Positions 12,110-32,108 of a stretch of DNA of 64,000 nt are shown piece after piece. This DNA is from Oceanibacterium hippocampi (GTDB lineage Bacteria > Pseudomonadota > Alphaproteobacteria > Sneathiellales > Sneathiellaceae). The first letter of the stretch is position 1, and each line of letters begins with the position of its first letter. Where the stretch lies: assembly GCF_900172325.1 (NCBI RefSeq), contig NZ_FWFR01000002.1, positions 744,001 to 808,000 on the forward strand, given 5' to 3'. The notes under the pieces are model-generated. The model was not told the DNA's origin. It saw nothing but the letters and a program-made list of their open reading frames with translations, and made no database searches. A program made the position numbers and the translations under genes.

Positions 12110-12970
12110 ATGAGTGAGACGAATGCCCGCGAGAAGGACTACTGGACCTCGGCAATGGAAGACGCCGCCGTCTTCATGTCGAGAGCCAGCGACGTCACCA
12201 TTTCCGACCACCTGGAACCGTTCGGGGGCCTGAGGGAATCGGCCGACGAGGCGGGTGTCGAGGTGCTGTTCAGCGACAAGCCGATCGCCACGGACATGGA
12301 ACGGCAATTCTACCTGCGTCGTGGACTCATCCCCGCGTTCATCGGGGCGGCGCGCGAGATGAACGATCGCGGCTGGGTCCTGAAGGTCGAGGATGCCTAT
12401 CGGACGCCGCTGATCCAGAAGAAGCTCCAGGCGACGCCCGAGCTGTTCGACGCGGCCCTCGAAATCGTCCTCTGGGAAACCGACGGCGTCATGCCGGACT
12501 CGGCGTTCATTTTCCGCCGGTTGCTGGCACTGATTGCCTACTGCCCGATGGCAGGCACCCATATCAGCGGCACCGCGATGGACATATCTGTCGTCCACCG
12601 CGACAGCGGCGAGGAAGTCGACCGCGGCGCGCCCTACCTGGAGTTCAGCGTCAAGACGCCGATGCGTTCGCCCTTCGTCAGCGACGCGGCGAAAGCCAAT
12701 CGTCAGGAGATCACGGCGCTCATGAAGCGCCATGGCTTCGTCGATTATCCGTGGGAGTTCTGGCACTACAACCAGGGAGACTCCTACGAGGTCGTGCTCA
12801 GCGGCGACCCGTCACGGGGACGCTACGGCCCGGTCGAGTGGGATCCGGTGACCGGTACCGCGACGGCGGTCCCCAATCCCCGGGAACGCCTGAACAGCGA
12901 CGCGGAGATCCGTTCCTACCTGGACGCCGCAATCGCGCGACGAACGGCATCGGACGCGGCCAACCGCTGA
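12110..12970 (+). CDS. VanX-like D-alanyl-D-alanine dipeptidase family protein (M15)
   Basis: This 286-residue protein carries the zinc-peptidase M15D pattern: HISGTAMDIS with His151 and Asp158 as metal ligands, and WEFWHYNQG with catalytic Glu216 and ligand His219. The conserved DAYRTP segment (96-101) holds the arginine that stabilises the transition state. M15D enzymes such as VanX and DdpX hydrolyse D-Ala-D-Ala dipeptides from peptidoglycan. It is longer than VanX (about 200 residues) because of about 70 extra N-terminal residues. No signal peptide is visible, so it acts in the cytoplasm. It is divergent from a TRAP operon and shares its palindromic control region, so it may process the imported compound. 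Confidence 0.85.
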   Translation: MSETNAREKDYWTSAMEDAAVFMSRASDVTISDHLEPFGGLRESADEAGVEVLFSDKPIATDMERQFYLRRGLIPAFIGAAREMNDRGWVLKVEDAYRTPLIQKKLQATPELFDAALEIVLWETDGVMPDSAFIFRRLLALIAYCPMAGTHISGTAMDISVVHRDSGEEVDRGAPYLEFSVKTPMRSPFVSDAAKANRQEITALMKRHGFVDYPWEFWHYNQGDSYEVVLSGDPSRGRYGPVEWDPVTGTATAVPNPRERLNSDAEIRSYLDAAIARRTASDAANR

Positions 12971-13073: not shown

Positions 13074-14582
13074 TCAGTCTCCGAGGTCGAACTTGATGCC
13101 CTGCGCCAGCGGCAGTTCGCGGGAATAGTTGATCGTGTTGGTGGCCCGGCGCATGTAGGCCTTCCAGGAATCGGAGCCGGACTCGCGCCCGCCGCCGGTT
13201 TCCTTCTCGCCGCCGAACGCGCCACCGATTTCCGCGCCGCTCGGTCCGATATTCACGTTGACGATGCCGGTATCGCTGCCGGCCGCCGACATGAATGCCT
13301 CGGCCTCGCGCAGGTCGGTGGTGAAGATGCAGGACGACAGGCCCTGCGGCACGTCGTTGTGCCGCGCGACCGCGTCATCCAGCTCGCGATACTTCATCAG
13401 GTAGAGGATCGGCGCGAAGGTCTCGGTGCGGACGATCTCGGTTTGCGACGGCATCTCGACCAGCGCCGGCGACACGTACCAGGCGTTCGGGAAGCGATCC
13501 TGCAACGCCCGTTCGCCGCCGGTGACCTTGCCGCCGTCGGCGCGGGCCTGGTCGAGGGCGGCCTGCATGGACTCGAATGCCCGCCCGTCGATCAGCGGGC
13601 CGACCAGCGTGCCGGCCTCCAGCGGGCTGCCGATCCGCACGCTGCCGTAGGCCTTCTTCAGACGCGGCACGAGCTGGTCGTAGACATCCTCGTGAATGAA
13701 GGCGCGACGGAGCGAGGTGCAGCGCTGGCCGGCCGTGCCGACCGCCGAGAACACCGTGCCGGGCACCACCAGATCGAGGTCGGCCGAGGGCGCGACGATC
13801 ATGCCGTTGTTGCCGCCGAGTTCGAGCAGGCTGCGGCCCAGCCTGGCCGCGACGCGGGGCGCCACGGCGCGGCCCATGCGGCAGCTGCCGGTCGCGCTGA
13901 CCAGAGGAACCCGCGGGTCGTCGACCAGCGCCTCGCCCACGTCGGCCTTACCGACCACCACCTGGACGAGGTTCGCCGGTACATCGCCGAGCTTCTTGAC
14001 CGCCTGCTCGAACAGCTTCGCACAGGCGAAGGCGGTCAGCGGCGTCTTCTCCGACGGCTTCCAGATCACCGGGTCGCCGCAGACGATGGCGAGCGCGGTA
14101 TTCCACGACCAGACCGCGACCGGGAAATTGAAGGCGCTGATCACCGCGACCGGACCGATCGGATGCCAGGTTTCCATCATCCGGTGACCGGGCCGCTCGG
14201 AGGCGATGGTCAGCCCGTAAAGCTGGCGCGACAGGCCCACGGCGAAGTCGCAGATGTCGATCATCTCCTGGACTTCGCCCTTGCCCTCCTCGAATATCTT
14301 GCCCGCCTCGAACGTCACGAGCCGGCCGAGATCGTCCTTGTGGCGACGCAGTTCCTCGCCGAACAGGCGGATCAGCTCGCCGCGGCGCGGCGCCGGAACG
14401 GTCCGCCAGGCCTCGAACGCCGTCTGCGCCCGAGCGACGACATTGCCGACCTCGCCGACCGGGGTGGCGGGAACCCGGGCAATGACGCTGCCGTCGACGG
14501 GCGTGACAATCTCCAGCTCGCCCTTCTGCAGCGTCGATGCATCCAGTCCCAGCGCCTTCAAAGTCGTCTTGATATCCGTCAT
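13074..14582 (-). CDS. Aldehyde dehydrogenase, ALDH7 (aminoadipate semialdehyde) type
   Basis: This 502-residue NAD(P)-dependent dehydrogenase shows the catalytic glutamate in LELGGNNGM (Glu254) and the nucleophilic cysteine in GTAGQRCTSLRR (Cys288). The NAD-binding landmarks ISAFNFPVAVWSWN and WKPSEKTPLT are also present. The GNNG and RCTSLRR details and AEIGGAFGGEKETGGGRESGSD-type ending region (ETGGGRESGSDSWK) match the ALDH7A1/AmaB subfamily, which oxidises 2-aminoadipate 6-semialdehyde / piperideine-6-carboxylate in lysine and pipecolate catabolism. It stands alone on the minus strand, divergent from a VOC gene. Substrate assignment is by subfamily resemblance; related semialdehydes from diamines or diamino acids are possible. 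Confidence 0.9.
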   Translation of the reverse strand: MTDIKTTLKALGLDASTLQKGELEIVTPVDGSVIARVPATPVGEVGNVVARAQTAFEAWRTVPAPRRGELIRLFGEELRRHKDDLGRLVTFEAGKIFEEGKGEVQEMIDICDFAVGLSRQLYGLTIASERPGHRMMETWHPIGPVAVISAFNFPVAVWSWNTALAIVCGDPVIWKPSEKTPLTAFACAKLFEQAVKKLGDVPANLVQVVVGKADVGEALVDDPRVPLVSATGSCRMGRAVAPRVAARLGRSLLELGGNNGMIVAPSADLDLVVPGTVFSAVGTAGQRCTSLRRAFIHEDVYDQLVPRLKKAYGSVRIGSPLEAGTLVGPLIDGRAFESMQAALDQARADGGKVTGGERALQDRFPNAWYVSPALVEMPSQTEIVRTETFAPILYLMKYRELDDAVARHNDVPQGLSSCIFTTDLREAEAFMSAAGSDTGIVNVNIGPSGAEIGGAFGGEKETGGGRESGSDSWKAYMRRATNTINYSRELPLAQGIKFDLGD

Positions 14583-14713
14583 AGCGGAACTCCTCTAACC
14601 GTCCAGTCTGTCGCCCCGTAGACCATGCCCGTGCGGAGCGATGTCGTATCGGATGTAGCCACTGCGTGATAGATTGCCGATCCGTCGCCGCAGCCGGAAC
14701 CACGGATCGAAAC

Positions 14714-15136
14714 ATGTCGCTTCGCCTTCATCATGTCGGGCTCGTTGTACCCGATCTCGCCGCCGCCCTGACAGCCTATCGTTCGATCCCGGGCGCACAA
14801 ATCTCCGAACCGTTTCACGTGCCTGTCCGGAACTACCGGATGGCCTACGTGACGCTGGACAACAGCCTGATCGAGCTGACCCAGCCGCTCGACGACAAGA
14901 GCTATGCCGCCCGCTTCCTCGCGCTGAACCCGACCGGTGGGCTCAACCACCTCGCCTTCGAGGTCGAGAATCTCGAGGAAGCACGCGACAGCCTGCTGCA
15001 ACAGGGCGCCCGGCCGTTCGGCTCGACCGAGCCGGCGCCCGATCGCGACGGCACGCGGATCGTCGTTCTCGACGCCGCCGCGACGCATGGCACGCTGGTC
15101 GAACTGCGGGAGGCGCGCCCGACCGCCGGCGACTGA
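14714..15136 (+). CDS. VOC superfamily protein, methylmalonyl-CoA epimerase-like
   Basis: The ATG at 14714 gives 140 residues beginning MSLRLHHVGLVVPDL, the first beta-alpha module of the vicinal oxygen chelate fold with a metal-ligand histidine. The second module shows GGLNHLAFEVENLEEARDSL, and the C-terminus supplies GTLVEL with a glutamate ligand. The spacing and TQPL motif resemble methylmalonyl-CoA epimerases and small glyoxalase-like proteins. It converges with the first AstE/AspA gene with a 10 nt gap and is divergent from the aldehyde dehydrogenase gene. Reaction cannot be fixed from sequence alone; an epimerase or lyase on a carboxylic acid derivative is plausible. Confidence 0.8.
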   Translation: MSLRLHHVGLVVPDLAAALTAYRSIPGAQISEPFHVPVRNYRMAYVTLDNSLIELTQPLDDKSYAARFLALNPTGGLNHLAFEVENLEEARDSLLQQGARPFGSTEPAPDRDGTRIVVLDAAATHGTLVELREARPTAGD

Positions 15137-15146
15137 CAGGCTTGCC

Positions 15147-16142
15147 TCAATCCTCCAGTACGGCGATCACCTCGGCGATCTGGTCGCCCGAATAGACCGG
15201 CATGTAGCGTTTCCGGATCGAACCGATCCAGCCGCGTCCGATCGGCGATGTCACGGTCTCGATGACGTCGCCGTAGGGATTGAGAAGTCGCCCGAGTGCC
15301 TGGCCCTCGTCGACCACCTCGCCGGCCTCGACCGCGGGCTCGAAGAATCCGCCGAGCTTGCTGTAAACCAGCAGCGCATTGTCCATGACCCGGTAGCTGC
15401 CCTGGCGCGGCGCCTTGCCCGGCAGGATGCCGAGCGCCGTCGCAATGCCGGTGATCGCCGTCTCGAAGCTCTTCACATGGGCTTCGGGCAGGCCGCCGCC
15501 ACCGCCGCATTCGATGATCAGCGAAGGGATGCCGCGCGCCGTCATGTTGGTGAACATGGCGCCCTTCAGCCAGCCATCGGTCGACGCCCAGATGTCCGGC
15601 GTGCCGGCCGCCTCGGCCAGCTCATGGGACTTGCGGGCCGCTGCCGAACCGTCGTTCCGGTACAGCGCGTAGAACGGCACCAGCGACCGGTCCCCGCCGG
15701 AATGCAGGTCCAGCATGGCATCGGCAACCGCGCTCGCCGCCTCGAAGAGGTAATGCGCGGTCTGCTGGCTGTGCGGACCGGCCGGCGCGCCGGGGAAGAT
15801 GCGGTTCAGATTCTCGCCGTCCAGCGGCGTGTTCCGGGAATATTCCCGGAAGCCGTTCGGGTTCGCCAGCATGACGGCGACGATGGTGCCGCTCATCGTC
15901 GTCAGGTCGATCCCGTTAAGGACCCGCTGCAGGGCCACCGGCCCACCGATTTCCGGCCCGTGGATGCAGCCCTGTGCCCACAGCACCGGCCCGGGCTTCG
16001 CCCCGCAAGCGATCATGACCGGCGAGGTGATGGGGGAATCCGGGAAATGGCCGAGAAGCAGTTCGCCGCGGGTGATCTTGCCGGGCTCTGCCTTTGCGGT
16101 TCCGACAGCGATCGTGCCGTGGCGCTGTTCCATGATTGTCAT
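15147..16142 (-). CDS. Succinylglutamate desuccinylase/aspartoacylase (AstE/AspA) family deacylase, copy 1
   Basis: The ATG at 16142, 8 nt after GGAGG, gives 331 residues (a GTG 6 nt upstream is possible). Zinc ligands are visible in CIHGPEIGG (His61, Glu64) and LDLHSGGD (His147); the catalytic glutamate is in SLIIECGGGGG. The family removes acyl groups from amino acids, as in succinylglutamate, N-acetylaspartate or N-acetyl-diaminobutyrate (DoeB/EutE). The last about 80 residues resemble a biotinyl/lipoyl-like beta domain found in this subfamily. It ends an operon with three paralogues, an amidohydrolase and a Pot-like ABC transporter. It pairs with copy 2 by shared GTAKAE, HSGGD and ECGGGG motifs. 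All key residues are kept. Confidence 0.9.
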   Translation of the reverse strand: MTIMEQRHGTIAVGTAKAEPGKITRGELLLGHFPDSPITSPVMIACGAKPGPVLWAQGCIHGPEIGGPVALQRVLNGIDLTTMSGTIVAVMLANPNGFREYSRNTPLDGENLNRIFPGAPAGPHSQQTAHYLFEAASAVADAMLDLHSGGDRSLVPFYALYRNDGSAAARKSHELAEAAGTPDIWASTDGWLKGAMFTNMTARGIPSLIIECGGGGGLPEAHVKSFETAITGIATALGILPGKAPRQGSYRVMDNALLVYSKLGGFFEPAVEAGEVVDEGQALGRLLNPYGDVIETVTSPIGRGWIGSIRKRYMPVYSGDQIAEVIAVLED

Positions 16143-16184
16143 TGTCACGTCCTCCGTGTGCGGCCCTTGCAGGCGGTCCGCCGG

Positions 16185-17168
16185 TTATCGGGAAACCACC
16201 AGGTTGCATTCCGCGCACATCGATCCGGAATAGACCGGGTAATAGGGCCGGATCAGGGCCGCCAGATAGGCCGGTCCGTTCGGGGATCGGATCTCCTCGA
16301 CGATATTGCCGTAGACATCCATGATCTCGGCGATGACAGTACCCTTCTCGACGATGTCGCCGACCTCCGCCTTCGGCAGGAAATAGCCGCCCTGGCGGTT
16401 GAAGACGAGTTCGCACTCCGTGACTTCCGTGTATTTCGGAAAGGTCGGCGCCTCGCCGGGCAGGATCCCCAGCGTCTGCGCGACGCCCTTCACGGCGCCC
16501 CGGAAATTGTCGATATGCTCTTCCGGCATGGCGCCGCCGCCGCCGCATTCGACGATTACCGCCGGCTTGCCCCGCAGCGTCACGTTGACGAACATTGCCC
16601 CCTTCAGCCAGTCGTCGCCGGACCGCCAGACGACCGGCGAGCCGACCGCGCGCGCAAGCTTGGCCGACGTCTTCGAGGCCGGCGAGCCGTCGTCCCAGTA
16701 GAGGCCGTAGAACGGCACGACCGCCCCGTCACCGCCGGAATGGGTGTCGATCACCGCGTCGGCGACCTCCATCGCGGTCTGGAACAGCACGTTCGCCGAC
16801 TGCCGGGAATGGGGACCGTCCGGATCGCCCGGGAACAGCCGGTTCATGTTCTCGCCGTCCAGCGGGGTGTTTCGGGTATAGCCCCGGAAGGCGCCCGGAT
16901 TGGCCGCCATGATGCCGACGATGGCGCCACTCATCTGGCTCAGGTCGAGCTCCTTGAAGAGCTTGAGGATACCCAGCGCGCCGCCGATCTCGGTACCGTG
17001 GATCGCCGACTGCACCCACAGCACCGGGCCGGGTTTCCCGCCGCAGGCGATGTTCACCGGCGTGGTGATCGGACCATCCGGAAAATGTCCGAGCGTCAAC
17101 GTGCCGGTCGTCCACTTGCCGGCCTCGGCCTTTGCCGTACCCACTGAAAAATTCTGGCTGTCCGTCAT
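16185..17168 (-). CDS. AstE/AspA family deacylase, copy 2
   Basis: I use the ATG at 17168 (MTDSQNFSVGTAKAEAGKW), 8 nt after GGGAG, giving 327 residues; a longer in-frame extension runs into the amidohydrolase gene and is unsupported. Zinc ligands are in AIHGTEIGG (His57, Glu60) and IDTHSGGD (His143), with the catalytic Glu in VIVECGGGGA. It is the closest sister of copy 1 (same GTAKAE start, NTPLDGEN-NR-FPG, HSGGD, ECGGGG). It hydrolyses an N-acyl bond in family terms. It lies 42 nt upstream of copy 1 and 23 nt downstream of the amidohydrolase gene. Two closely related copies in a row suggest a recent tandem duplication with divergence in substrate or a heteromeric enzyme. Confidence 0.9.
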   Translation of the reverse strand: MTDSQNFSVGTAKAEAGKWTTGTLTLGHFPDGPITTPVNIACGGKPGPVLWVQSAIHGTEIGGALGILKLFKELDLSQMSGAIVGIMAANPGAFRGYTRNTPLDGENMNRLFPGDPDGPHSRQSANVLFQTAMEVADAVIDTHSGGDGAVVPFYGLYWDDGSPASKTSAKLARAVGSPVVWRSGDDWLKGAMFVNVTLRGKPAVIVECGGGGAMPEEHIDNFRGAVKGVAQTLGILPGEAPTFPKYTEVTECELVFNRQGGYFLPKAEVGDIVEKGTVIAEIMDVYGNIVEEIRSPNGPAYLAALIRPYYPVYSGSMCAECNLVVSR

Positions 17169-17191
17169 AATCGATACTCCCTGCGGGTTTC

Positions 17192-18442
17192 TCAGTGGCG
17201 GAAGGCGCGGCCGCCGGCGGCGACTTCCTGTCCGGCGATCAGCACATGTCGCATGTTGCCCGGCACCTCGAGGACGCGGACATTGGAGACCACGTCGCCC
17301 TCGACGACGATCACGTCGCCGAGCATGCCCTCCTCGACCGTGCCGACATCGGTGGCCTTCAACAGCTTGGCGGTGTTCCGGGTCGAGACCTCGATCGCCT
17401 GAACCGGGTCGAGGCCGCATTTCACGAACTGCACGACCTCGCGGCCGGCCGAGCCGTGCGGCGTCAGCAGCGACCCGGCATCCGTCCCGCAGGCGATATT
17501 GGCGCCGATGTCATAGGCATACTTCACGTATTCATGATGCTTCGTGGTCCGCTCGCGGACGTTGGCGATCATAAAGTCGGCGATTCCGGCCTGGGCGCCG
17601 TGCACCATGATGCGGTCCATCACGGTCAGCGTCGGCACCAGGAAGGTGCCATGCTCGCGGGCCGCCTCGGCGCACTCCTCGTCGAAATGCATGCCGTGTT
17701 CGATCGAGCGGCATCCGGCGCGGATGCTGCGCAGGATCGCCGTCTTGTTATGCGCATGCACGGCGACCGGCAGCCCCATGGTGGTCGCCGTCGAGACCGC
17801 CGTGTCGAACTCGTCGGGCATGAATTCCTCGGCCTCGATCCTGCCATGCGGATCGACCACACCGCCGGTCTGGAACAGCTTGATCCAGGTGGCGCCGGTC
17901 TTTGCCTGGACGCGGATCGCCTTGCGGATCGCGTCGGGCCCGTCGACCATCTCGGAAATGTCGCCATGCGACTGGCAGAGCCAACAGGGCATGATGTCGC
18001 CGTGCCCGCCGGTCGTCGTCAGGCCCTTGCCGCAGGGATGGATGCGCGGGCCGACGATCTTGCCCTGCGCGATCGCGTTGCGGGCGGCGATGTCGAGGTG
18101 GGCAAGGTCGCTGACGGTGCGGATGGTCGTCACCCCGCCGGCAACGGTGTCGGCCAGGTTGTTGGCAACCTCGAAGGCCGCCTCGCCCACCGGGCGCGCG
18201 GTCATTTCCTTCAGCAGGTCGGACGGCGCGCTGAGCGAGATATGCACATGCACGTCCATCAGGCCGGGCATGACGCTGGCCCCGTTGGCCTCGATCACCC
18301 GGTCGGCGCGCGGCATCGCCTTGCCGTTCTTCTTGCCGGCGAAGGTGATGCGGCCGTCCTCGATGACGACGACGCTGTCGGGCACGGGGTCGGCACCGGT
18401 GCCGTCAACCAGCAGACCGCCGATGATTGCCGTTGTCGTCAT
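17192..18442 (-). CDS. Amidohydrolase superfamily metal-dependent hydrolase (imidazolonepropionase/prolidase-like)
   Basis: This 416-residue protein begins with a small beta domain (GGLLVDGTGADP) and then PGLMDVHVHISL, where His65 and His67 are the HxH metal ligands on strand 1 of the TIM barrel. Further ligands appear in VAVHAHNK and IEHGMHF, and the catalytic aspartate in CGTDAGSLLTPHG. The pattern fits the cluster of amidohydrolases that includes imidazolonepropionase, Xaa-Pro/Xaa-Arg dipeptidases and carboxypeptidase-like enzymes, which cut C-N bonds of cyclic or linear amides. It sits between the two AstE/AspA pairs, 1 nt from copy 3 and 23 nt from copy 2. I infer one hydrolytic step in the same pathway. 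Confidence 0.88.
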   Translation of the reverse strand: MTTTAIIGGLLVDGTGADPVPDSVVVIEDGRITFAGKKNGKAMPRADRVIEANGASVMPGLMDVHVHISLSAPSDLLKEMTARPVGEAAFEVANNLADTVAGGVTTIRTVSDLAHLDIAARNAIAQGKIVGPRIHPCGKGLTTTGGHGDIMPCWLCQSHGDISEMVDGPDAIRKAIRVQAKTGATWIKLFQTGGVVDPHGRIEAEEFMPDEFDTAVSTATTMGLPVAVHAHNKTAILRSIRAGCRSIEHGMHFDEECAEAAREHGTFLVPTLTVMDRIMVHGAQAGIADFMIANVRERTTKHHEYVKYAYDIGANIACGTDAGSLLTPHGSAGREVVQFVKCGLDPVQAIEVSTRNTAKLLKATDVGTVEEGMLGDVIVVEGDVVSNVRVLEVPGNMRHVLIAGQEVAAGGRAFRH

Positions 18443-18443
18443 G

Positions 18444-19424
18444 TCATGATTCCCGGGGGTTGAGGCCGATATGAACCAGGGTCGCCCCGTTGTTCATGAT
18501 CGGGCCTGGATGAATGGCGAGCACGGTGCCCTTGTGCGGGCTCTCGGCAACGCCGTCGGGCTCGCCGTAGATGTTGTAGAAATGCCCGAGCACGGTGCCG
18601 ACCTCGAGGGCATCGCCGCAGTTGACGGCGCGGATGAACAGGCCGCCGCGCGGCGCCGTTACCCAGGCGAAATCGGCGAAGTCCGCGATTCCGCCGTAAT
18701 CGACGACCTTGCCTTCGAGCATGCCGAGGTGACGCATGACATTGGCGAAGCGTTCGGCCCCGTCGGCGACGCCTTCCTTGGTGAAGGAGAAGCCCTTGCC
18801 GCCCGATTCAACGATGAAGCCCGGGATGCCGTCCTTCGCCGCCGTCATCATGGCCGAGCCGGCCAGCAGGTGCGGCGGCGTCGCCAGCGTCGAGTGGAAG
18901 CCCCAGGCAAGGGCCACGCCGCGACCGGTTTCCGAGACCTTGCCACCCATGTCGGCATAAAGCGCCCAGCGCACGTCCGAGGTCATCGCCGTGTGGAAAT
19001 CGAGGAACACGTCGGCGTGCTTCTTCAGGTTGCTGTAGACGTGATGGGCCATCTGCATGGTCAGCGAGCCGTTCGGATCGCCGGGAAAGCAGCGGTTCAT
19101 GTCACCGCCGCCATAGCCCTCGAACGGGCTCATCCGCTGGTCGCGGTGGAACGCGGTGATGTTGAGCGCCGGCAGCGCGATGACCGTGCCCGACATCGCT
19201 GCCGGGTCGAGGGCGCGCAACGCCTTCAGGATGATGAAGGTGCCGCAATACTCGTTGCCGTGTACGCAGCCATGCACCCAGAGCGTCTTGCCGGGCTTCG
19301 CGCCACGAACGATGACCACCGGGGTCTCCATCGGTCGTCCGTCCGGATAATCCGCGAATTTCAGTTTGCCGGTAGCAATCCCGGGCGCGGTGGATACCGC
19401 GCTGCCCAAGCGAATTTCGTCCAT
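18444..19424 (-). CDS. AstE/AspA family deacylase, copy 3
   Basis: The ATG at 19424 lies 6 nt after GGGGGAGG and gives 326 residues (MDEIRLGSAV); the ATG at 19430 abuts that site too closely. Zinc ligands are in CVHGNEYCG (His55, Glu58) and LDFHTAM (His144); the catalytic Glu is in FIVESGGKG. It shares YCGTFII, QRMSP, GGGDMNRCFPG and FHTA with copy 4 and so forms subfamily B, distinct from copies 1 and 2. The C-terminus ends HIGLNPRE, parallel to HIGLDPRK of copy 4. All catalytic residues are retained. Role: zinc-dependent removal of an acyl group in the cytoplasm; no signal peptide is visible. Confidence 0.9.
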   Translation of the reverse strand: MDEIRLGSAVSTAPGIATGKLKFADYPDGRPMETPVVIVRGAKPGKTLWVHGCVHGNEYCGTFIILKALRALDPAAMSGTVIALPALNITAFHRDQRMSPFEGYGGGDMNRCFPGDPNGSLTMQMAHHVYSNLKKHADVFLDFHTAMTSDVRWALYADMGGKVSETGRGVALAWGFHSTLATPPHLLAGSAMMTAAKDGIPGFIVESGGKGFSFTKEGVADGAERFANVMRHLGMLEGKVVDYGGIADFADFAWVTAPRGGLFIRAVNCGDALEVGTVLGHFYNIYGEPDGVAESPHKGTVLAIHPGPIMNNGATLVHIGLNPRES

Positions 19425-19482
19425 TGTCATCCTCCCCCTCGACGGGCGGCCCCTCGAGGCCGCACCGCCGGAATAGCCTGCG

Positions 19483-20469
19483 TCAGACCTTGCGCGGATC
19501 CAGACCGATATGAATGAGGGTCGCTCCCTGCGGCATGGTCGGCCCCGGATGGATGGCCAGCGCCACGCCACCGTGCGTTGCCTTGGCCTCGCCGATCTTC
19601 TCTCCGAAGGTGTTGAAGTAGGTGCCGAGCACCTGCCCCTTCTCGATCCGGTCGCCGCACTTGACGAGTGGCTCGTAGAGCCCGCCACCGGTCGTCGAGA
19701 CCCAGGCGAAGTTCGAGAAATAGGTAAGCGGCCCGTAATCGGTCACCGCGCCGTCCATCAGGCCGAGTGCCCGCATCACGTTGCGCAGGCGTTCGGCGCC
19801 GTCCTCCAGCGTGGCGCGATCGAAACCGGCGCCCATGCCGCCGGATTCGACGATGAGGCAGGGAATGCCGTCGTTCGCCGCGACCTGCATGGCCGCGCCC
19901 TGGAGGATGTCGGCCGGCGCCGGCAGGGTGGAATCGAAGCCGAAGGCGCGCGCCATCTTCTCGGCCATCTCGCCAACCTTGCCGTCGCGCTTCGAGAACA
20001 GCTGCCAGCGGGTGTCGGGCGTGAAGGCGGTGTGGAAGTCGATCAGGTAGTCGGCATATTCCTTCAGCGGCGTGTAGATCGCGTAGGCCATCTGTTCGGT
20101 GACCGAGCCGTCGACCTTGCCGGGGAAGCAGCGGTTCAGGTCGCCGCCGCCGAACGCCTCGTAGGGGCTCATCCGCTGGTTCTTCAGGAACGCCGTCAGG
20201 TTGAGGATCGGCAGGGCGACGACCGTGCCCTTGATCTTCTTCGGGTCGAGGCTCCGCATCAGTTCGTGGATGATGAAGGTGCCGCAGTATTCGTCGCCAT
20301 GGACGCAACCGTGCATCCAGAGCACCGGCCCGTCGGTCTCACCCCGGGCGATGATCACCGGGATCTCGACCGGATCGCCGTCCGGATGACTGCCGACCCG
20401 CAGGGTTCCCTTGACGATGCCCGGCCCGGTGGATTTCGCGGTGCCGACGCTTATGGTTTTCATGTTCAT
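19483..20469 (-). CDS. AstE/AspA family deacylase, copy 4
   Basis: This 328-residue zinc hydrolase has ligands in CVHGDEYCG (His57, Glu60) and IDFHTAF (His146) and the catalytic Glu in LIVESGGMG. The ATG at 20463 (MKTISVGTAK) is an equally good start. It is the first enzyme gene after the Pot-like transporter and is separated from the permease gene by a 66 nt spacer with a small GC hairpin. With copy 3 it forms a closely related pair. N-acetyl-diaminobutyrate deacetylases of ectoine catabolism (DoeB/EutE) belong to this family, as do succinylglutamate and aspartoacylase enzymes; which of these activities applies cannot be read directly. Confidence 0.9.
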   Translation of the reverse strand: MNMKTISVGTAKSTGPGIVKGTLRVGSHPDGDPVEIPVIIARGETDGPVLWMHGCVHGDEYCGTFIIHELMRSLDPKKIKGTVVALPILNLTAFLKNQRMSPYEAFGGGDLNRCFPGKVDGSVTEQMAYAIYTPLKEYADYLIDFHTAFTPDTRWQLFSKRDGKVGEMAEKMARAFGFDSTLPAPADILQGAAMQVAANDGIPCLIVESGGMGAGFDRATLEDGAERLRNVMRALGLMDGAVTDYGPLTYFSNFAWVSTTGGGLYEPLVKCGDRIEKGQVLGTYFNTFGEKIGEAKATHGGVALAIHPGPTMPQGATLIHIGLDPRKV

Positions 20470-20535: not shown

Positions 20536-21408
20536 TCAGACGCGCATGATCTTGCGCAGCCCGACCAGCCGCTCGATCACCAGGCCGAGCACGACAATCA
20601 TCAGGATTTGCAAGGTCGTGATCGCGGCGATCACCGGGGTACTTTCCCACTGCATGTACGAGAAGATCTCGATCGGCAGCGTCGTCATGCCGGGGCCCGA
20701 CAGGAACAGCGCGATATAGACGTCGCCGAAGGAAATGATGAAGGCGAAGATCAGCGCCGACAGCATGCCGGGCGCGATCAGCGGAATGACGATTTCGACG
20801 AGAACGCGGAAGCGCGAGGCGCCGAGGGTGAGGGCCGCGAGTTCGAGTTGCTTGTCGACGCCCTCGAGGCTTGCCGTGATGCCGGCGATCGTGAACGGCA
20901 GGCAGATGATGGTGTGGCCGACGATCAGCGCCGTCATTTCGGGGATCGGCAGGACGGTCAGCAGAAGCAGCAGCGAGATGCTGATCAGGATATGCGGGAT
21001 CATGACCGGCAGCATCGCCAGTGATTGGCCAAGCTCGCGCTTCTTCGTCAGGAACCGGGTGATTCCGTAGGCGGTGAAGAAGCCGATCACCGTTGCCGCG
21101 ACGGCGGCGATCAGGCCGAGCCAGAGGCTGAACTGGAAGGCCGAGGTGAAACCCGAACTTTCGAAGAATGCGCCGTACCAGCGCAACGAGAACCCGCTCG
21201 GCGGAAAGGTGTTCGCGGTCGTCGGATTGAAGGAGGTGAAGACGACGATGATGATCGGCGACAGCAGGAAGACGTAGATCGCGGTCACCAGGATACCCAT
21301 CGATACCCGGCGCAAGTATCCGAACTCCATCGTCGGCTGGGAGATCGTGCCCTTCGTGTAGCCACGGCGGTCGTCGCCGGGCATCGTTTCGCTGGCGTTA
21401 CTGCGCAC
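20536..21408 (-). CDS. ABC transporter permease, PotC-like
   Basis: The frame opens with GTG at 21408 and gives 290 residues; about 35 residues precede the first membrane helix (SMGILVTAIYVFLLSPIIIVVF). The PotC-type FTSFNP...GFSLRWYGAFF motif and an EAA-like loop (ELAALTLGASRFRVLVEIVIPL) are visible. It overlaps the end of the upstream PotB-like gene by 11 nt. It would form the membrane channel for the solute later processed by the AstE/AspA, amidohydrolase and other hydrolases of this locus. Length is slightly above the family mean because of the N-terminal extension; a downstream ATG near MEFGYLRR (residue 27) could be the true start. Confidence 0.9.
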   Translation of the reverse strand: MRSNASETMPGDDRRGYTKGTISQPTMEFGYLRRVSMGILVTAIYVFLLSPIIIVVFTSFNPTTANTFPPSGFSLRWYGAFFESSGFTSAFQFSLWLGLIAAVAATVIGFFTAYGITRFLTKKRELGQSLAMLPVMIPHILISISLLLLLTVLPIPEMTALIVGHTIICLPFTIAGITASLEGVDKQLELAALTLGASRFRVLVEIVIPLIAPGMLSALIFAFIISFGDVYIALFLSGPGMTTLPIEIFSYMQWESTPVIAAITTLQILMIVVLGLVIERLVGLRKIMRV

Positions 21409-22249
21409 GGCTGCGTCCTCCGCGGAAATACAGGAAGATGATCGAGAACTGGCAGAACACGAGAACGAACGCGGTCGCAGAAGCGAGCGGCCAGTTGAGC
21501 GTCGAGGTGACGAGTTCGTAGATCTGCTGACCGATCATCTGGACGTCCTTGCCGCCCAGCAGCGCCGGCGTCACCACCGAGCCCGCGGTCAGCGTGAAGA
21601 CCAGGGCGGCGCCCATGATGATCCCCGACCGGCTCATCGGCAGGGTCACCTCGATGAAGGTCCGCACCCGGCCCGCGCCAAGCGTGCTCGCGGCGCGCTC
21701 GACATCCGGGTCCTGCGAGGCCAGGGATGAGAACAACGGGAAGACCATGTAGGGCATCAGGATGTGGACGAGTGCCAGCAGCACCGCCAGTTCGGTCCCG
21801 AGAATGGTGGCCGGCTCTGACAGGAAGCCGAGCGTCATCAGCACCTTGTTGACGGCACCTTCGCGGCCGAGCAGGACGATCCAGCCGTAGGTCCGGACGA
21901 TCACGCCGGTCATCAGCGGCGCGATCACCAGGAACATCAGCACGCCCCGCCAGGCGGATTTCGTGCGGGCCAGAAAATAAGCCAGCGGATAACCGAGCAC
22001 GAGGCTGAAAAACGCGGTCAGGAAGGCGATCTTCAGGGTCCGCAGGATGATCGTCTGGTAGTAGCCGTCGAACAGCAGGCGGGCGAAATTCTCGCCCGTG
22101 ACGACCGGCGCATACATGTTGAAGGCGTCGTACTTGAACAGGCTCATCAGCAGGAAGAAGCTGATCGGCGCCAGCAGGAACAGGACATAGAGGATCGTGA
22201 TCGGTCCCAGCATGATGCGGGAAAAGGCTTTCTCGCCGCCGGTCCGCAT
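21398..22249 (-). CDS. ABC transporter permease, PotB-like
   Basis: This 283-residue permease has six membrane segments, the first at about residues 14-36 (ITILYVLFLLAPISFFLLMSL), then FNMYAPVVTGENFARLLFDG as the periplasmic loop. The EAA-like motif ERAASTLGAGRVRTFIEVTLPMS lies near residues 182-204 (here read as ERAASTLGAGRVRTF plus EVTLPM). The start codon is 1 nt from the stop of the ATPase gene, so both are co-translated. It is the second gene of the permease pair in the Pot-like transporter of the central catabolic locus. Confidence 0.9.
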   Translation of the reverse strand: MRTGGEKAFSRIMLGPITILYVLFLLAPISFFLLMSLFKYDAFNMYAPVVTGENFARLLFDGYYQTIILRTLKIAFLTAFFSLVLGYPLAYFLARTKSAWRGVLMFLVIAPLMTGVIVRTYGWIVLLGREGAVNKVLMTLGFLSEPATILGTELAVLLALVHILMPYMVFPLFSSLASQDPDVERAASTLGAGRVRTFIEVTLPMSRSGIIMGAALVFTLTAGSVVTPALLGGKDVQMIGQQIYELVTSTLNWPLASATAFVLVFCQFSIIFLYFRGGRSRAQ

Positions 22250-22250
22250 G

Positions 22251-23348
22251 TCAGTTGTCCCTCGGCAGGACGCGGCAGTCCTCGGGCACCACCCAGACGT
22301 CGTCGCCCGGCCCGAGATGCCGGAAGCGTTCGACGCTCGGCTTCGTTGAAACGAATTCGATCCCGTCCCTGGTGGTCAGGGTGAAGGTGATCAGGTCGCC
22401 GGAGAAAACCCGCTTGGCGACGCTGGCCGCCATGCCCGTCTCGCCCTCGACCTTGTCGCGGATATCGACCCGTTCCGGCCGCACCATGAGGAAGACGTCG
22501 TCGCCGACACCGAAATCGCGGTTGCCCTTGCGGGCGTCCATGCGGATGCCGCCGGGAATCTCGATATTGACGAGCGAGCCGTTGGCGCTGACCACCCGGC
22601 CCTCGATCAGGTTCGTCTCGCCGATGAACTCCGCCGCGAAACGGGTATCGGGCAGATCGTACATTTCCTCGGGCGGGCCGAGTTGCTCGATCCGGCCCCG
22701 GTTCATCAGCACGACGCGGTCCGACATCTCGAACGCCTCGTCCTGGTCGTGGGTCACGAAGATCGTCGTGATGCCGAGCTTCTGCTGGATATCGCGCAGT
22801 TCCAGGCGCATGCGCTTGCGCAGCACGGCGTCAAGGTTCGACAGCGGCTCGTCGAGAAGCAGCACGGTCGGTTCGATGACCACGGCACGCGCCAGGGCGA
22901 CCCGCTGCCGCTGCCCGCCGCTCAACTGGCTCGGCAGCCGCTCCTCGACCCCGGGAAGGCCGACGACATCGAGAACGCGCATTACCCGTTCCCGGATCTC
23001 GGCTTTCGGCACCTTTCGCATCCGGAGTCCGAAGGCAACATTGTCGTAAATCGTCTTGTGCGGGAACAGGGCATAGTTCTGGAACACCAGCCCCATGTCC
23101 CGGTACGGGGGGTCGACCTTGGTGATATCGCGGCCTTCCATCAGCACCGTTCCCTCGGTCGGGAACAACAGTCCGGCGATGATGTGCAACGTGGTCGTCT
23201 TGCCACAGCCGCTCGGGCCGAGAAGGGTGAGAAACTCACCCTTCTCGACGTCGAATTCGACGGGGCCTACGCCGAGCGTATTGCCGTACTTCTTGGTAAT
23301 ATTCTTCAACTGAAGAACTGCATTCGCCACCGGTCGACCCCCCGCCAT
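22251..23348 (-). CDS. ABC transporter ATP-binding protein, PotA-like
   Basis: This 365-residue ATPase has Walker A GPSGCGKT at residues 44-51, the signature LSGGQRQRVALARA, Walker B LLLLDEPLSNLD and the H-loop VTHDQDEAFEMSD. A TOBE-type C-terminal domain follows (FLMVRPERVDI). The ATG at 23348 has a poor ribosome binding site; a GTG six codons later (V7) is preceded by a G-rich run and may be the real start. It powers the permeases encoded directly downstream. A 36 nt spacer with a short dyad separates it from the binding-protein gene. Confidence 0.92.
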   Translation of the reverse strand: MAGGRPVANAVLQLKNITKKYGNTLGVGPVEFDVEKGEFLTLLGPSGCGKTTTLHIIAGLLFPTEGTVLMEGRDITKVDPPYRDMGLVFQNYALFPHKTIYDNVAFGLRMRKVPKAEIRERVMRVLDVVGLPGVEERLPSQLSGGQRQRVALARAVVIEPTVLLLDEPLSNLDAVLRKRMRLELRDIQQKLGITTIFVTHDQDEAFEMSDRVVLMNRGRIEQLGPPEEMYDLPDTRFAAEFIGETNLIEGRVVSANGSLVNIEIPGGIRMDARKGNRDFGVGDDVFLMVRPERVDIRDKVEGETGMAASVAKRVFSGDLITFTLTTRDGIEFVSTKPSVERFRHLGPGDDVWVVPEDCRVLPRDN

Positions 23349-23384
23349 GGAGATTACTTAACAGTAGTGGGGAATGTTCGGCTG

Positions 23385-24473
23385 CTAGCTGCCGAGCACT
23401 TCCTTGTTCCAGCGATCCTTGATCTCGTCGCGATAGGCAAACATCGCCATGTAGTCGAATTCGCGCTGGATCTTGCCGAGACCCTCGACCTGCTCGTCGG
23501 TCAGCTCGAGACGCTTCAGGTCGGGCGGCAGGTTCTTCATCGCCTGGATATTGGTCGGCGGATAGCCGGTCAGTCGCGAGAAGGCGATCTGCCGTTCCGG
23601 ATCAAGCGAGTAGTTGACGAGTTTCGCCGCCAGCTCCGTGCTTTCCTTCGGACGGCCGTTGATGATCGCGGTGTTCCAGATGAAGCTGAGGCCGCCCTCT
23701 TCCGGCACCACGAACTCGACCGGTGCGCCGGCCGCCGCGGCCTGCTCGGTACGGGCTCCGAAATACGGCGCGACCCAGACCTCTTCCTCGACGAGAAGCT
23801 GCTTCGTATGCTCCACGTTCTCGATCGTGAGCGCCGCGTTATCGGTGTAGAGCGCCTTCAGCTTGGCGATGCCAGGATCGACATTGTCCGGCGAGCCGCC
23901 CTCGAGCTGGTTGATGGCGTGGAAGACTTCCTGCCCCATCCAGTTCCAGGCCGGGAAGGCAACCTTGCCCTTCAGTTCCGGATTCCACAGGTCGGCCCAT
24001 TTCGTGATCGGCGACTTCACCCGCTTGGTATTGACCACGAGGCCGTAAGGCGTGTGGATCTTGCCCGCGAGGTAGGGATAGCGGAAGGACGGGTGGATGT
24101 CCTTCAGGTTCGGGATCATGTCCTCGGTCCATTCGATAACCGCGTCCATGGCGCCGAGCTGGCTGGAGGTGTTCTGGTTCTGGTGGATGAGATCCCACTG
24201 CGGGCGTCGGCGCTGGGCAATCACCAGCGGCTCGAACGACAGGCCCGTCTTCCAGACGATGTTTGCACCCTCGGCCTTCGCGAAATCGTCGACGAAGGTC
24301 TCCGTGAACCACTTCTGCCAGGTCCCGCCGGCGAACAGGATATGCAACTCGCCTCCCGCCGCGCGGGCGGCGCTGGAGCCGAAGCCGGCCAGCGCCGCGG
24401 CGCCCGCCCCGGTCATGGCGGTGCTTTCGAGAAAGCGCCGACGATCCATCAAGGTCTTCAGATAGTTGCTCAT
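23385..24473 (-). CDS. Extracellular substrate-binding protein, PotD-like, Tat signal
   Basis: This 362-residue binding protein has a twin-arginine signal: MDRRRFLESTAMTGAGAAAL, cleaved near ARA|AGGELH, so it is probably exported folded by the Tat system. The mature protein follows the PotD-like pattern (LHILFAGGTWQKWFTETFVDDF), and a later AWNWMGQEVFHAINQLEGGSPDN-like region is seen in polyamine-type binding proteins (GQEVFHAINQ). It lies 38 nt upstream of the ATPase gene and 63 nt downstream of the IclR gene. It would capture the substrate of the central locus in the periplasm. The ligand is unknown; Pot-type systems feeding hydrolases commonly import amide or amine compounds. Confidence 0.9.
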   Translation of the reverse strand: MSNYLKTLMDRRRFLESTAMTGAGAAALAGFGSSAARAAGGELHILFAGGTWQKWFTETFVDDFAKAEGANIVWKTGLSFEPLVIAQRRRPQWDLIHQNQNTSSQLGAMDAVIEWTEDMIPNLKDIHPSFRYPYLAGKIHTPYGLVVNTKRVKSPITKWADLWNPELKGKVAFPAWNWMGQEVFHAINQLEGGSPDNVDPGIAKLKALYTDNAALTIENVEHTKQLLVEEEVWVAPYFGARTEQAAAAGAPVEFVVPEEGGLSFIWNTAIINGRPKESTELAAKLVNYSLDPERQIAFSRLTGYPPTNIQAMKNLPPDLKRLELTDEQVEGLGKIQREFDYMAMFAYRDEIKDRWNKEVLGS

Positions 24474-24514
24474 TACTTGTGGCCTCCCGTTGTTGCCTGG
24501 TGTTGAGCTTAAAC

Positions 24515-24542
24515 CCCTGAATCACTCACCCCGAATTCAGGG
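24515..24542 (-). terminator. Hairpin at the end of the IclR gene
   Basis: CCCTGAAT (24515-24522) and ATTCAGGG (24535-24542) form an 8 bp stem with a 12 nt loop that spans the IclR stop codon. On the minus strand it is followed by GTTTAAG, a weak T-stretch. It may attenuate readthrough from the regulator gene into the transporter operon. Confidence 0.45.
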
Positions 24543-25373
24543 AATCGAACCTATTCGCCCGGTATATCTTGTGCCGTCTACAGCGACGATTTTTGAGTCG
24601 AACTCCGGAACACTTCTGAATTCCTGCCAATATTTGTCTTTTACACGACGTCCGATCTCGCAAGCCTCGACAAGCATGCTCTTCTTCATTCTCTTGATTA
24701 TCTCGTCATCGGCGGCCGATGTCGGAAAGGAGAGCGAGAAGGCCACGGCTTGCGGCTCGTCCGCACTTTCGACAGCACAGCCGATGGCACAGAAGCCGGA
24801 AAAGTTCGTGTTGAATGTCGCGGCCACGCCGTCCCGGCGAATGTTCGCGAGGTCCGACAACAGGCTGTCGATATCGGTCTCGTATTCCGCCTCGGGGTGG
24901 CTGAGCGGATCGGGGTGAAGCGCGCGCACTTCCGCATCCGGCAGGCGGGCCATCAGGACCCGGCCAATCGTCGTCGCGAAGGCCTGGCCACGATATCCCG
25001 GCTCGAGGACCAAGCGCACGGGATAGGAGCCCTGCCGCACCCGGATCAGAACGATGTCGGCGCCGTTCAGCACTCCGATATAGCCCGTCGCATGATACTC
25101 GTCGACCAGCCGGCTCAGCGCCTCATCGACGAGATCGAGAAGCTTCAGCCGCTTCTGGAAGTAGTTGCCGAGTTCGAAGGCGAGAATGCCCGGCCCGTAA
25201 CCGCGCCGCTTCGGATCGGGTTCGATCAGGCCGGATTCGGCCAGGGTCTTCATGAGCCGCGAGACCGTGCTCTTGGGTAGTCCCAGGTGCTCGGCCACTT
25301 CCGACACGCGCAGTTCCGACCGCTCCGCCGAGAAGCATTGAAGAATGCGAATGCCGTTTTCGAGTGAGCTCAT
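24537..25373 (-). CDS. IclR family transcriptional regulator
   Basis: This 278-residue regulator has an IclR N-terminal winged helix: GIRILQCFSAERSELRVSEV, then AEHLGLPKSTVSRLMKTLAE as the helix-turn-helix (about residues 24-46). The GAF-like ligand domain covers residues about 80-250 and includes LEPGYRGQAFATTIGRVLMA and FSGFCAIGCAVES, characteristic positions of the effector pocket. It lies at the head of the minus-strand transporter/deacylase unit and divergent from the M20-HyuA-HyuB unit. A tandem 12 bp direct repeat in the shared spacer is the likely binding site. It therefore probably coordinates both arms of the central catabolic locus. Confidence 0.93.
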   Translation of the reverse strand: MSSLENGIRILQCFSAERSELRVSEVAEHLGLPKSTVSRLMKTLAESGLIEPDPKRRGYGPGILAFELGNYFQKRLKLLDLVDEALSRLVDEYHATGYIGVLNGADIVLIRVRQGSYPVRLVLEPGYRGQAFATTIGRVLMARLPDAEVRALHPDPLSHPEAEYETDIDSLLSDLANIRRDGVAATFNTNFSGFCAIGCAVESADEPQAVAFSLSFPTSAADDEIIKRMKKSMLVEACEIGRRVKDKYWQEFRSVPEFDSKIVAVDGTRYTGRIGSIP

Positions 25374-25578: not shown

Positions 25579-26802
25579 ATGGTGGACAGCACCGGGTCAT
25601 CGATACCGATCGCCGAGCGCAAGGAGGCACTCGACTTCCTCGCCGGCATGATCCGCCACAAGAGCTACTCCGGTACGCCGGGCGAGGAAGCCCTGGCCCG
25701 GCACATGGTCGAGCGGATGCGGTCGCTCGGCATGGCGGCGGAGTTGCAGCCTGTCGAAGGCGGACGGTTCAACGCGATCGGCCGGCTGAAAGGCGAAGGT
25801 GGCGGCGCCAGCCTGCTCTTCAATGGCCACCTGGACACCAATCCGGCGACCGACGACTGGACCGTCGACCCCTGGGGCGGGCTACAGGACGACGATTTCA
25901 TCTACGGCATCGGCGTTTCCAACATGAAGGCCGGCGACGCGGCCGCCTTCATGGCGGTCAAGACCCTGCTCGACAGCGGCGTGCGGCTGAAGGGCGACAT
26001 CGTCCTGGAATATGTCGTCGGCGAATTGCAGGGCGGCATCGGCACCGTCGCCGCGATCGAGCAGGGCGTGCGCGCCGACTATTTCATCAACATGGAACCG
26101 ACCGACCTGAACGGCCTGACACTCCATGCCGGCGCCTTCAACTTCGCGATCGAGCTGCGCGGCATCACCCGCCATATCTCGAAGCGCGAGGAAGCCGTCG
26201 ACGCGATACTCGCCGCCTGCGACCTGGCACCGCGAATCGCCGCGATCACCTTTTCCGGCGCGGCGAACGACGAGCACCGGACGGTCAACCGGGCCAATGT
26301 CGGCGTGCTCCGCGGCTCCCTCACCCCCGATTTCCACGACTGGCGGCCACCGCAGGTCGCGGACTTCGCCCGGCTCGTCGGGACCGCCCGCTATGCGCCA
26401 AGCCAGAACGAGGACGGCGTGCTCGCCGACCTGCGTTCGCTGCTCGACGATCTGCAGCGGCGCTTCCCCGGGCTCCGCGCCGAGGTAAGGAAGGAATTCG
26501 GCAGTCACCGGATCAGCATGCTGCCGTTCGAGGTCGCGAAGGATGCCCGGATCGTCCGAACGGTCGATGCCGCCCACCGCGCCGTTCGCGGCAGCGCCCT
26601 GCCGACCGGCCCGATCCGGCCCTACTGCTATTACGGCACGGACGCGGCGCATCTGCTGCACCGCGCCGGCATGGAGGGCATCGTCTGCGGGCCGGGCGGC
26701 AAGTACAACACCATGCCGGACGAACGCGTCGACATACCGGACTATCTCGACATGATCGAGATCTACACCCGCTCGATCCTCGATATCTGCGAGAGAGCCT
26801 GA
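25579..26802 (+). CDS. M20 family zinc hydrolase (ArgE/DapE/carboxypeptidase-like)
   Basis: This 407-residue protein has the M20 metal-site layout: LFNGHLDTNPATDDW (first His ligand and the following Asp), the bridging region IYGIGVSNMKAGDAAA (usually GRGxxDMKGG), and VVGELQGGIGTVAAIE where the catalytic and ligand glutamates normally lie in the pattern EE; here a single Glu in GELQ is visible. The C-terminal CYYGTDAAHLL and CGPGGKYNTMPDERVD supply the last His/Glu region, although the usual His in GPG..xxAH reads GGKYNTMPDE. M20 enzymes cleave N-acyl or N-carbamoyl amino acids and peptides. It starts the divergent unit with HyuA and HyuB. Several metal-ligand positions look altered, so activity may be unusual. 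Confidence 0.85.
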   Translation: MVDSTGSSIPIAERKEALDFLAGMIRHKSYSGTPGEEALARHMVERMRSLGMAAELQPVEGGRFNAIGRLKGEGGGASLLFNGHLDTNPATDDWTVDPWGGLQDDDFIYGIGVSNMKAGDAAAFMAVKTLLDSGVRLKGDIVLEYVVGELQGGIGTVAAIEQGVRADYFINMEPTDLNGLTLHAGAFNFAIELRGITRHISKREEAVDAILAACDLAPRIAAITFSGAANDEHRTVNRANVGVLRGSLTPDFHDWRPPQVADFARLVGTARYAPSQNEDGVLADLRSLLDDLQRRFPGLRAEVRKEFGSHRISMLPFEVAKDARIVRTVDAAHRAVRGSALPTGPIRPYCYYGTDAAHLLHRAGMEGIVCGPGGKYNTMPDERVDIPDYLDMIEIYTRSILDICERA

Positions 26803-26877
26803 CGTCCCCACCCTTCGGACAATCCACTTATTCTTCCAGGCTTCGGGTCGACCGGGCCCGAACATCAGGTGAGTAGC

Positions 26878-30971: not shown

Positions 30972-32105
30972 CTACCCGTCGATCTCGGGCGCTTGCGACG
31001 CCCGGGTCAGACGCTCGGCCCCGGCCTCGCCGACCAGAAAGCTGTCGCCCAGCACCATGACGCGATTGCCCGCGAGATCGCGGATCGCCGCCTCCAGGTA
31101 GACGCAGGCGCCTGCCGGCAGGCAGGCGTCTTCGCCGGGCCGAAGATAGGGCCAGTCGGCCTCGCTCGGCGCATAGATCGCGCCCAGCCCGTGCCCGGAT
31201 ACGCGGACGCCGTCGCCAGCGTCGACGGCCGCGACATCGCCGGCCACGACCCCCGGCCGCAACAGGCCGGCGGCCGTTTCCTGGGCCGCGCGGACCCGTT
31301 CGAACAGTTCCCGCCCCGCGCGGTCCCGCGGCGCCAGGACCAGTGTCCGCGCGATCCCCGCATGATAGCGGAGCGACGATCCGGCAAGGCCGAGGAACAG
31401 CGGATCTCCCTCCGCCAGCACCCGTCGCCCCGAATGACCGTTCGGCGCGGCCGCCTCGGGGCCGGAGCCGATCACCGGTTCCCACGCCGCCGGCATCCCG
31501 CCCGCGCGCAGCATGTCCGCCTGCATGCGGCCGACGATCAGGGCCTCCTCCACATCCGGCCGGGCGAGACTTCGGGCCGTCGCGATCGCCTGGTCGGCGC
31601 GGGCGGCGGCGGCACGGGTCAGGGCAATCTCGGCCGGGGTCTTGGCAGCCCGCAAGCCATCGACCAGCCGGGAGGCGTCAACCAGGTCGCAGAACCCGCC
31701 GCAGGCCTCGGCCAGCTGTCGCCAGACGAAGGCCGTCATGCCGAAACAGTCCCGTTCCACGCCGAGCCGCTTCTCGGCGAGCCCCTTCTCGGCCAGCAGA
31801 TCGCGGAGCATCTCGCCCGGCCCCTGTCCCTGCCCGTCCAGCCAGACCCGGATGTCGGGAATGTCCGACGTGATGCGCGCCTGGCGCAGGTCCGGCAAGC
31901 GCGACAGCAGCGCCAGGTCCCCGTCCCCTGTCAGCAGCAGGCACTGGAAATAGGTATGCGCCCCGGAATCGTAACCGGTCAGGTAATAGCGGCTATCCTG
32001 CTTGAACAGCACGAGGGCATCAAGCCCCTCCTCTGCCATCGCCGCGACCGCCCGCGCCTGCCGGGCGGCGAATTCCGCCGGCGGGAAATGTGCGATATCC
32101 GCCAT
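30972..32105 (-). CDS. M24 (pita-bread) family protein with degenerate metal site, copy 1
   Basis: The 377-residue protein has an N-terminal creatinase/prolidase domain (residues 1-150, with VLFKQDSRYYLTGYDSGAH) and a C-terminal pita-bread domain. In Xaa-Pro peptidases five ligands (D, D, H, E, E) hold two metals. Here the first Asp reads Gly (FLGLAG), the second reads Gly (HAGIART), His305 in GHGLG and Glu338 (VYLEAAI) remain, and the final Glu reads Gly (VLGDSF). Loss of metal ligands is typical of creatinase- and ectoine-hydrolase-like members, which cleave C-N bonds without a metal. It is 3 nt downstream of a second M24 gene and convergent with hyuB. Confidence 0.85.
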   Translation of the reverse strand: MADIAHFPPAEFAARQARAVAAMAEEGLDALVLFKQDSRYYLTGYDSGAHTYFQCLLLTGDGDLALLSRLPDLRQARITSDIPDIRVWLDGQGQGPGEMLRDLLAEKGLAEKRLGVERDCFGMTAFVWRQLAEACGGFCDLVDASRLVDGLRAAKTPAEIALTRAAAARADQAIATARSLARPDVEEALIVGRMQADMLRAGGMPAAWEPVIGSGPEAAAPNGHSGRRVLAEGDPLFLGLAGSSLRYHAGIARTLVLAPRDRAGRELFERVRAAQETAAGLLRPGVVAGDVAAVDAGDGVRVSGHGLGAIYAPSEADWPYLRPGEDACLPAGACVYLEAAIRDLAGNRVMVLGDSFLVGEAGAERLTRASQAPEIDG

Positions 32106-32108
32106 CCT

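Follow-up and report, generated by a model that had tools for sequence, protein, structure and literature searches.

The window analysed here is a stretch of 64,000 nucleotides from the genome of Oceanibacterium hippocampi (contig NZ_FWFR01000002.1, positions 744,001 to 808,000), to which all coordinates below refer. It contains four AstE/AspA genes on the minus strand, namely copy 1 (15147-16148; 333 aa), copy 2 (16185-17168; 327 aa), copy 3 (18444-19430; 328 aa) and copy 4 (19483-20469; 328 aa), with an amidohydrolase gene (17192-18442) between copies 2 and 3. All four are intact open reading frames, and their products belong to the Pfam family AstE_AspA_cat (PF24827), scoring 84, 80, 90 and 97 bits, respectively, against a profile cut-off of 25 bits. 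Copies 1 and 2 are 52.8% identical and copies 3 and 4 are 54.7% identical, while identity between the pairs is 31-33%, in agreement with the preliminary description of two diverged pairs around an amidohydrolase. The genome (4.83 Mb) encodes eight members of this family, and the whole-genome search, which recovers copies 1-4, places four of the eight inside 5.3 kb, a clustering that is not due to chance.

Active sites, fold and phylogeny of the four enzymes

The zinc ligands and the catalytic glutamate are H63/E66/H149/E213 in copy 1, H57/E60/H143/E207 in copy 2, and H57/E60/H146/E208 in both copy 3 and copy 4. As aligned residue by residue, the ligands of the HxxE...H zinc site, the catalytic glutamate and the Asn-Arg (NR) substrate motif are invariant in all four copies and in 22 of the 22 members of clades A and B (defined below) that were examined; the zinc site and glutamate had been reported as kept at first sight, and no copy has lost a zinc-binding residue. 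The shared motifs reported earlier are likewise present, namely GTAKAE, HSGGD and ECGGGG in copies 1 and 2, and HGxEYCG, FHTA and ESGG in copies 3 and 4. Beside the zinc site, clade A contains HSGG..VPFY, whereas clade B contains HTA..(V/T)RW, and clade B also has a 3-residue insertion ahead of the NR motif when compared with clade A. Judged from sequence, the differences beside the zinc site are plausible specificity positions. AlphaFold2 models of copy 4 (pLDDT 89.7) and copy 2 (pLDDT 93.1) predict a carboxypeptidase-like domain with a C-terminal beta domain and match the EutE/DoeB fold with TM scores of 0.80 and 0.83-0.84, respectively; full-length Foldseek matches of the two models are 6TWM, 3CDX and 3NA6 (TM 0.75-0.84).

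Maximum-likelihood analysis of 37 proteins places copies 1 and 2 with their relatives in clade A (support 100/99) and copies 3 and 4 in the separate clade B (100/100), and neither clade includes a characterised member. The branch splitting the DoeB/3CDX/2QJ8 side from the rest is supported at 100/100, and grouping clade B with DoeB is rejected by the AU test (p 3.9e-6), so the four copies do not share one known single-substrate clade. Within clade A, copy 1 groups with the copies of a related locus (L025) and with L033, apart from copy 2, whose nearest relatives are from loci L012 (63%) and L026. The AU test rejects both copies 1 and 2 as sisters (p 3e-6) and copies 3 and 4 as sisters (p 0.025), which excludes a recent tandem duplication of either pair and makes the duplications older than the O. 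hippocampi genome. A strict one-to-one correspondence of orthologues at the two clade B positions is also rejected, as neither position forms a single clade in the full-length alignment (AU p 0.005 and 0.003); the half-alignment tests give p values of 0.29 and 0.13 for the N-terminal half and 0.03 and 0.04 for the C-terminal half. Such mixing of positions would mean repeated duplication, or exchange between neighbouring genes.

The closest characterised system is DoeB/EutE, the N-acetyl-L-2,4-diaminobutyrate deacetylase (TIGR02994; 6TWL and 6TWM), which shares the fold, zinc ligands, catalytic glutamate and NR motif with the copies and functions alongside an importer and a ring-opening hydrolase, as in the context found here. 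However, copies 1-4 score 88-104 bits against the TIGR02994 equivalog cut-off of 402.7, whereas the true DoeB of this genome (587 bits) adjoins DoeA (782 bits) elsewhere. Ectoine degradation is thus rejected as the function of the cluster, the true doeA and doeB being at that other place. No doeA or eutD gene was found beside the AstE cluster, where the nearest M24 genes, two tandem genes of ectoine-hydrolase relatives at 30972-33257, score 73-143 bits versus 575-613 and are more than 10 kb away. The AstE succinylglutamate desuccinylase and the aspartoacylase ASPA share the PF24827 catalytic domain and the zinc site with the copies, but they are distant from copies 2 and 4 (TM 0.52-0.58; 12-16% identity) and there is no arginine succinyltransferase operon around the copies. 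Likewise, copies 1-4 give no match to the astE equivalog at E 0.001, and no astA-D genes were seen alongside. The cyanophycin beta-Asp dipeptide hydrolase CphZ (8EIN) has the fold of copies 2 and 4 (TM 0.69-0.73) at 16-17% identity and demonstrates that an AstE-type fold can cut dipeptides. The next closest folds, 3CDX and 2QJ8, are structural-genomics AstE/AspA proteins with no assigned substrate; 3CDX contains the HTA motif of clade B, yet both fall in the part of the tree that contains DoeB, apart from clades A and B.

Operon structure and neighbouring genes

On the minus strand, transcription passes from the IclR regulator through the genes for the binding protein, the ATPase and the two permeases to copy 4, the first enzyme gene downstream of the permeases, and on through copy 3, the amidohydrolase and copy 2 to copy 1, with which the unit ends. 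Gaps of 1-66 bases separate the ABC, AstE and amidohydrolase genes, which all lie on one strand. The preliminary description had missed that the AstE cluster is the 3' part of this longer unit, which starts with the IclR regulator and the ABC importer (20536-25373). A scan of the locus for promoters and terminators found no strong internal terminator or promoter, and promoter-like sites were no more frequent than in shuffled sequences. An ALDH gene (L-piperidine-6-carboxylate dehydrogenase; 13074-14582) was considered as a member of the unit and rejected, since an opposite-strand gene (14666-15136) intervenes and the ALDH was not seen in related loci.

The amidohydrolase (minus strand; 416 aa; PF01979, 133 bits) contains all the metal-ligand motifs (HVH, WIK, HAH, EHG and GTDAG), and its relatives in the PDB are 2QS8, 3MTW (Cc2672), 3FEQ and ochratoxin amidases. 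It is clearly related to a group that comprises dipeptidases for Xaa-Pro and Xaa-Arg/Lys as well as N-acyl-amino-acid hydrolases, while its score with the Xaa-Pro dipeptidase equivalog NF051886 (272 bits) is under the cut-off of 500. Cc2672 and Sgx9260c, from the same amidohydrolase group, are named among the aminoacylases and their relatives in a review (PMC11511702).

The importer is encoded on the minus strand by a PotC-like permease gene (20536-21408), a PotB-like permease gene (21398-22249), a PotA-like ATPase gene (22251-23348) and a gene for a periplasmic binding protein (23385-24473; PF13343 and PF13416), which is PotD/AgaA-like and not a canonical polyamine binder. The binding protein resembles PotD at 55-60 bits, with PDB matches of 57 bits to PotD and 46 bits to the agropine-binding AgaA, and its alignment does not keep the FWMDS motif of PotD, a change that we take to be the loss of the amine-binding aspartate. 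Polyamine uptake and catabolism is rejected on these two grounds, the low score with PotD and the altered motif, and the importer is of the PotABCD/agropine type and probably not for polyamines. The IclR-family regulator (24537-25373, minus strand) is BhcR/PcaR-like.

On the plus strand, a divergent M20 deacylase gene of the ArgE/DapE family (25579-26802; PF01546; TIGR01910, 155 bits) is located beside the operon, and since a 73% identical orthologue is divergent from IclR in L012, it likely belongs to the catabolic module of the operon. The next two plus-strand genes encode a HyuA-type subunit of the hydantoinase/5-oxoprolinase/caprolactamase group (26869-28941; NF050156, 481 bits, under the cut-off; 383 bits with the 5-oxoprolinase 6YRA in the PDB) and a HyuB-type subunit (28943-30928; NF050157, 254 bits, under the cut-off), after which lie the two M24 genes mentioned above. 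In L010, the HyuA orthologue (55%) adjoins IclR, and a 54% orthologue of HyuB is present. Both M20 and HyuAB run divergently from the operon, and each was seen in a single other locus, which counts against the function proposed below.

Related operons and rarity of the arrangement

Five loci came from a scan of public genomes. Four of them are close (58-66% identity), namely L010 from Microvirga antarctica, L011 from Mesorhizobium microcysteis, and L009 and L012 from alphaproteobacterial MAGs; a further genome, G377, is counted with L012, as the coordinates coincide and the two appear to be one locus. Whole-genome searches added L025 (genome G067) and L026 (genome G295), giving a total of six related operons, all in other alphaproteobacteria. 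Two adjacent clade B genes follow the permease gene in six of six related operons, and in seven of seven when the window is included. The order IclR, binding protein, ATPase, permease, permease and two clade B genes is retained in L009, L010, L011 and L012. A PotC-like orthologue (61-81%) lies directly ahead of the clade B pair in these four loci and in L026, orthologues of the PotB-like permease (58-75%) and the ATPase (58-67%) occupy equivalent positions, and IclR orthologues are present in L009-L012. In L025 the callable importer genes are present and no IclR was found, while L026 is a short contig that starts at the permeases, with a matching importer part.

The remaining genes are more variable. 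The amidohydrolase follows the clade B pair in L009, L012 and L025, is absent between the clades in L010 and L026, and is absent in L011. Downstream clade A genes number one each in L010, L012 and L026, two in L025 and none in L011, and the contig of L009 ends before the clade A position. Only L025 repeats the exact layout of two clade B genes, amidohydrolase and two clade A genes. The operon is absent from all 24 sampled members of the family to which O. hippocampi itself belongs, and clade B genes occur in four of 385 sampled alphaproteobacterial genomes, the window genome included. This patchy distribution suggests that the operon may have spread by horizontal transfer.

To assess rarity, 385 alphaproteobacterial genomes were scanned with the family profile, and the family members of 12 gene-rich genomes were then listed in full. 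At least four AstE/AspA members within about 10 kb were found in two of the 385 genomes, the window genome and G067, a count that is sensitive to fragmented assemblies and to the profile cut-off. Some alphaproteobacterial genomes encode 8-16 family copies, mostly as scattered singles, pairs and triplets. A plasmid of Cytobacillus oceanisediminis (L022) carries five AstE genes with an M20 gene and oligopeptide-type ABC genes, and a plasmid of Pukyongiella litopenaei (L023) carries two AstE genes, an amidohydrolase gene and an oligopeptide-type ABC system; most of these plasmid AstE genes fall on the clade A side of the tree. Both clusters thus resemble the operon in combining several AstE genes with an ABC importer and with an M20 or amidohydrolase gene, but they differ from it in the type of importer, in gene order and in having no clade B pair. 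They indicate that multiplication of AstE genes beside importers recurs, so that four paralogues in one operon, which the preliminary description had called unusual, are indeed rare, though not unique.

Proposed function of the operon

The gene cluster is probably an operon, inducible by its substrate, for the import and hydrolysis of a small amide-linked nutrient, with AstE/AspA copies that have diverged in specificity. Close packing, conserved order in related loci, invariant sites and EutE/DoeB-like models argue for this reading, as do the independent multiplication of AstE genes beside peptide importers and the precedent of the ectoine system, in which the importer, the ring hydrolase EutD and the AstE-family deacetylase EutE must work together (PMC8739950). 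The PotABCD/opine-type importer would take up the nutrient, for example an acylated dipeptide, an N-acyl amino acid or a cyclic amide whose ring has been opened. In the cytoplasm, the amidohydrolase would probably carry out a peptidase or acylase step by amide hydrolysis, and the four zinc enzymes would deacylate the N-acyl amino acids so released, each copy perhaps acting on distinct substrates. The clade B enzymes, which accompany the importer in every related locus, would be the core, while the clade A enzymes and the amidohydrolase would be add-on steps widening the range. Against this reading, the amidohydrolase is missing in L010, L026 and L011, the last of which also has no clade A gene, so these steps are not essential, and the promoter scan of the locus gave no excess over shuffles. 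The operon is probably under the control of the IclR regulator, and the products of the M20 deacylase and of the ring-opening HyuAB probably enter the same route.

It is tentatively conceivable that the paired deacylases of two clades, the amidohydrolase and HyuAB together form an undescribed catabolic route for an unrecognised natural amide, in which heteromers or hand-over of intermediates may be possible. A sequential pathway, where each AstE enzyme takes its own step on one multiply acylated or peptide-like compound, is considered unlikely. The conservation of the clade B pair across divergent alphaproteobacteria, and in L025 of the full layout, would fit such a pathway, and so would the rejected sister relationships, which indicate distinct paralogues retained for a long time; yet the variable number of clade A genes and the loci with no amidohydrolase are better accommodated by an adjustable range. 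It is quite unlikely that the adjacent paralogues (3 with 4, and 1 with 2) build hetero-oligomers with composite or regulatory interfaces. The adjacency of the clade B genes in all seven loci points in this direction, duplication or exchange between co-fitting neighbours could give the mixed clade B positions, and the related EutD and EutE act as a bi-module (PMC8739950). However, a stable EutD/EutE complex was not observed (PMC8739950), the half-alignment trees do not settle exchange, and the active site is complete in all four copies, whereas an inactive partner commonly marks hetero-oligomers. Plain gene dosage, by redundant duplicates of one broad-specificity deacylase, is highly improbable, since the tandem layout and the readiness with which the family multiplies in several alphaproteobacterial genomes are outweighed by the low identity between the pairs, the differences next to the zinc site that are fixed between the clades, and the old duplications.

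The import-and-hydrolysis reading involves ordinary chemistry in an arrangement that is unusual and conserved. Nothing relevant to such a cluster was found in open-access papers. Enzymes of this kind are known, but within the reach of these searches neither the two clades nor the conserved operon, nor the constant pairing of the clade B genes, has been described. Few AstE/AspA proteins have been assayed, and their usual annotation is succinylglutamate desuccinylase or aspartoacylase. As two clades occur in a conserved operon that has an importer and a binding protein of its own, the ligand of the binding protein offers a way to the substrate. Knowing the substrate would set right the annotation of entire clades and could bring to light a nutrient of environmental bacteria.

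Genes near the 3' end of the operon

The minus-strand aldehyde dehydrogenase gene (13074–14582), which scores 822 bits against a cut-off of 730 for L-piperidine-6-carboxylate dehydrogenase, lies close to the operon but is not clearly part of it. Between this gene and a TRAP transporter is a plus-strand homologue (12110–12970) of the M15 (VanX/DdpX-like) D-Ala-D-Ala dipeptidases, which scores far under the equivalog cut-offs. The minus-strand tRNA-Arg (tcg) reported by ARAGORN at 15073–15167 spans the 3' ends of two convergent genes, copy 1 (the last deacylase gene) and a VOC gene, and is probably a false call.

M24 pair and ectoine degradation genes

Two tandem minus-strand genes (30972–32105 and 32109–33257), flanked by HyuAB and a polar amino acid ABC importer starting at 34923, encode DoeA-related M24 proteins, which score 73–143 bits against ectoine hydrolase DoeA, far under its cut-offs. 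They constitute a second paralogue pair of predicted amide-bond enzymes within the operon's island. Elsewhere in the genome, the doeA-doeB pair at L028 (contig C6, 556000–570000) exceeds the NCBI cut-offs and is a genuine ectoine degradation pair.

AstE/AspA multiplicity in other genomes

A Cytobacillus oceanisediminis plasmid (L022:12965–28846) carries five AstE/AspA genes interspersed among oligopeptide-type ABC importer genes, together with an M20 hydrolase gene. The alphaproteobacterial genomes G079, G200, G295, G371 and G253 contain 12–16 AstE/AspA genes each, representing large expansions of this family.
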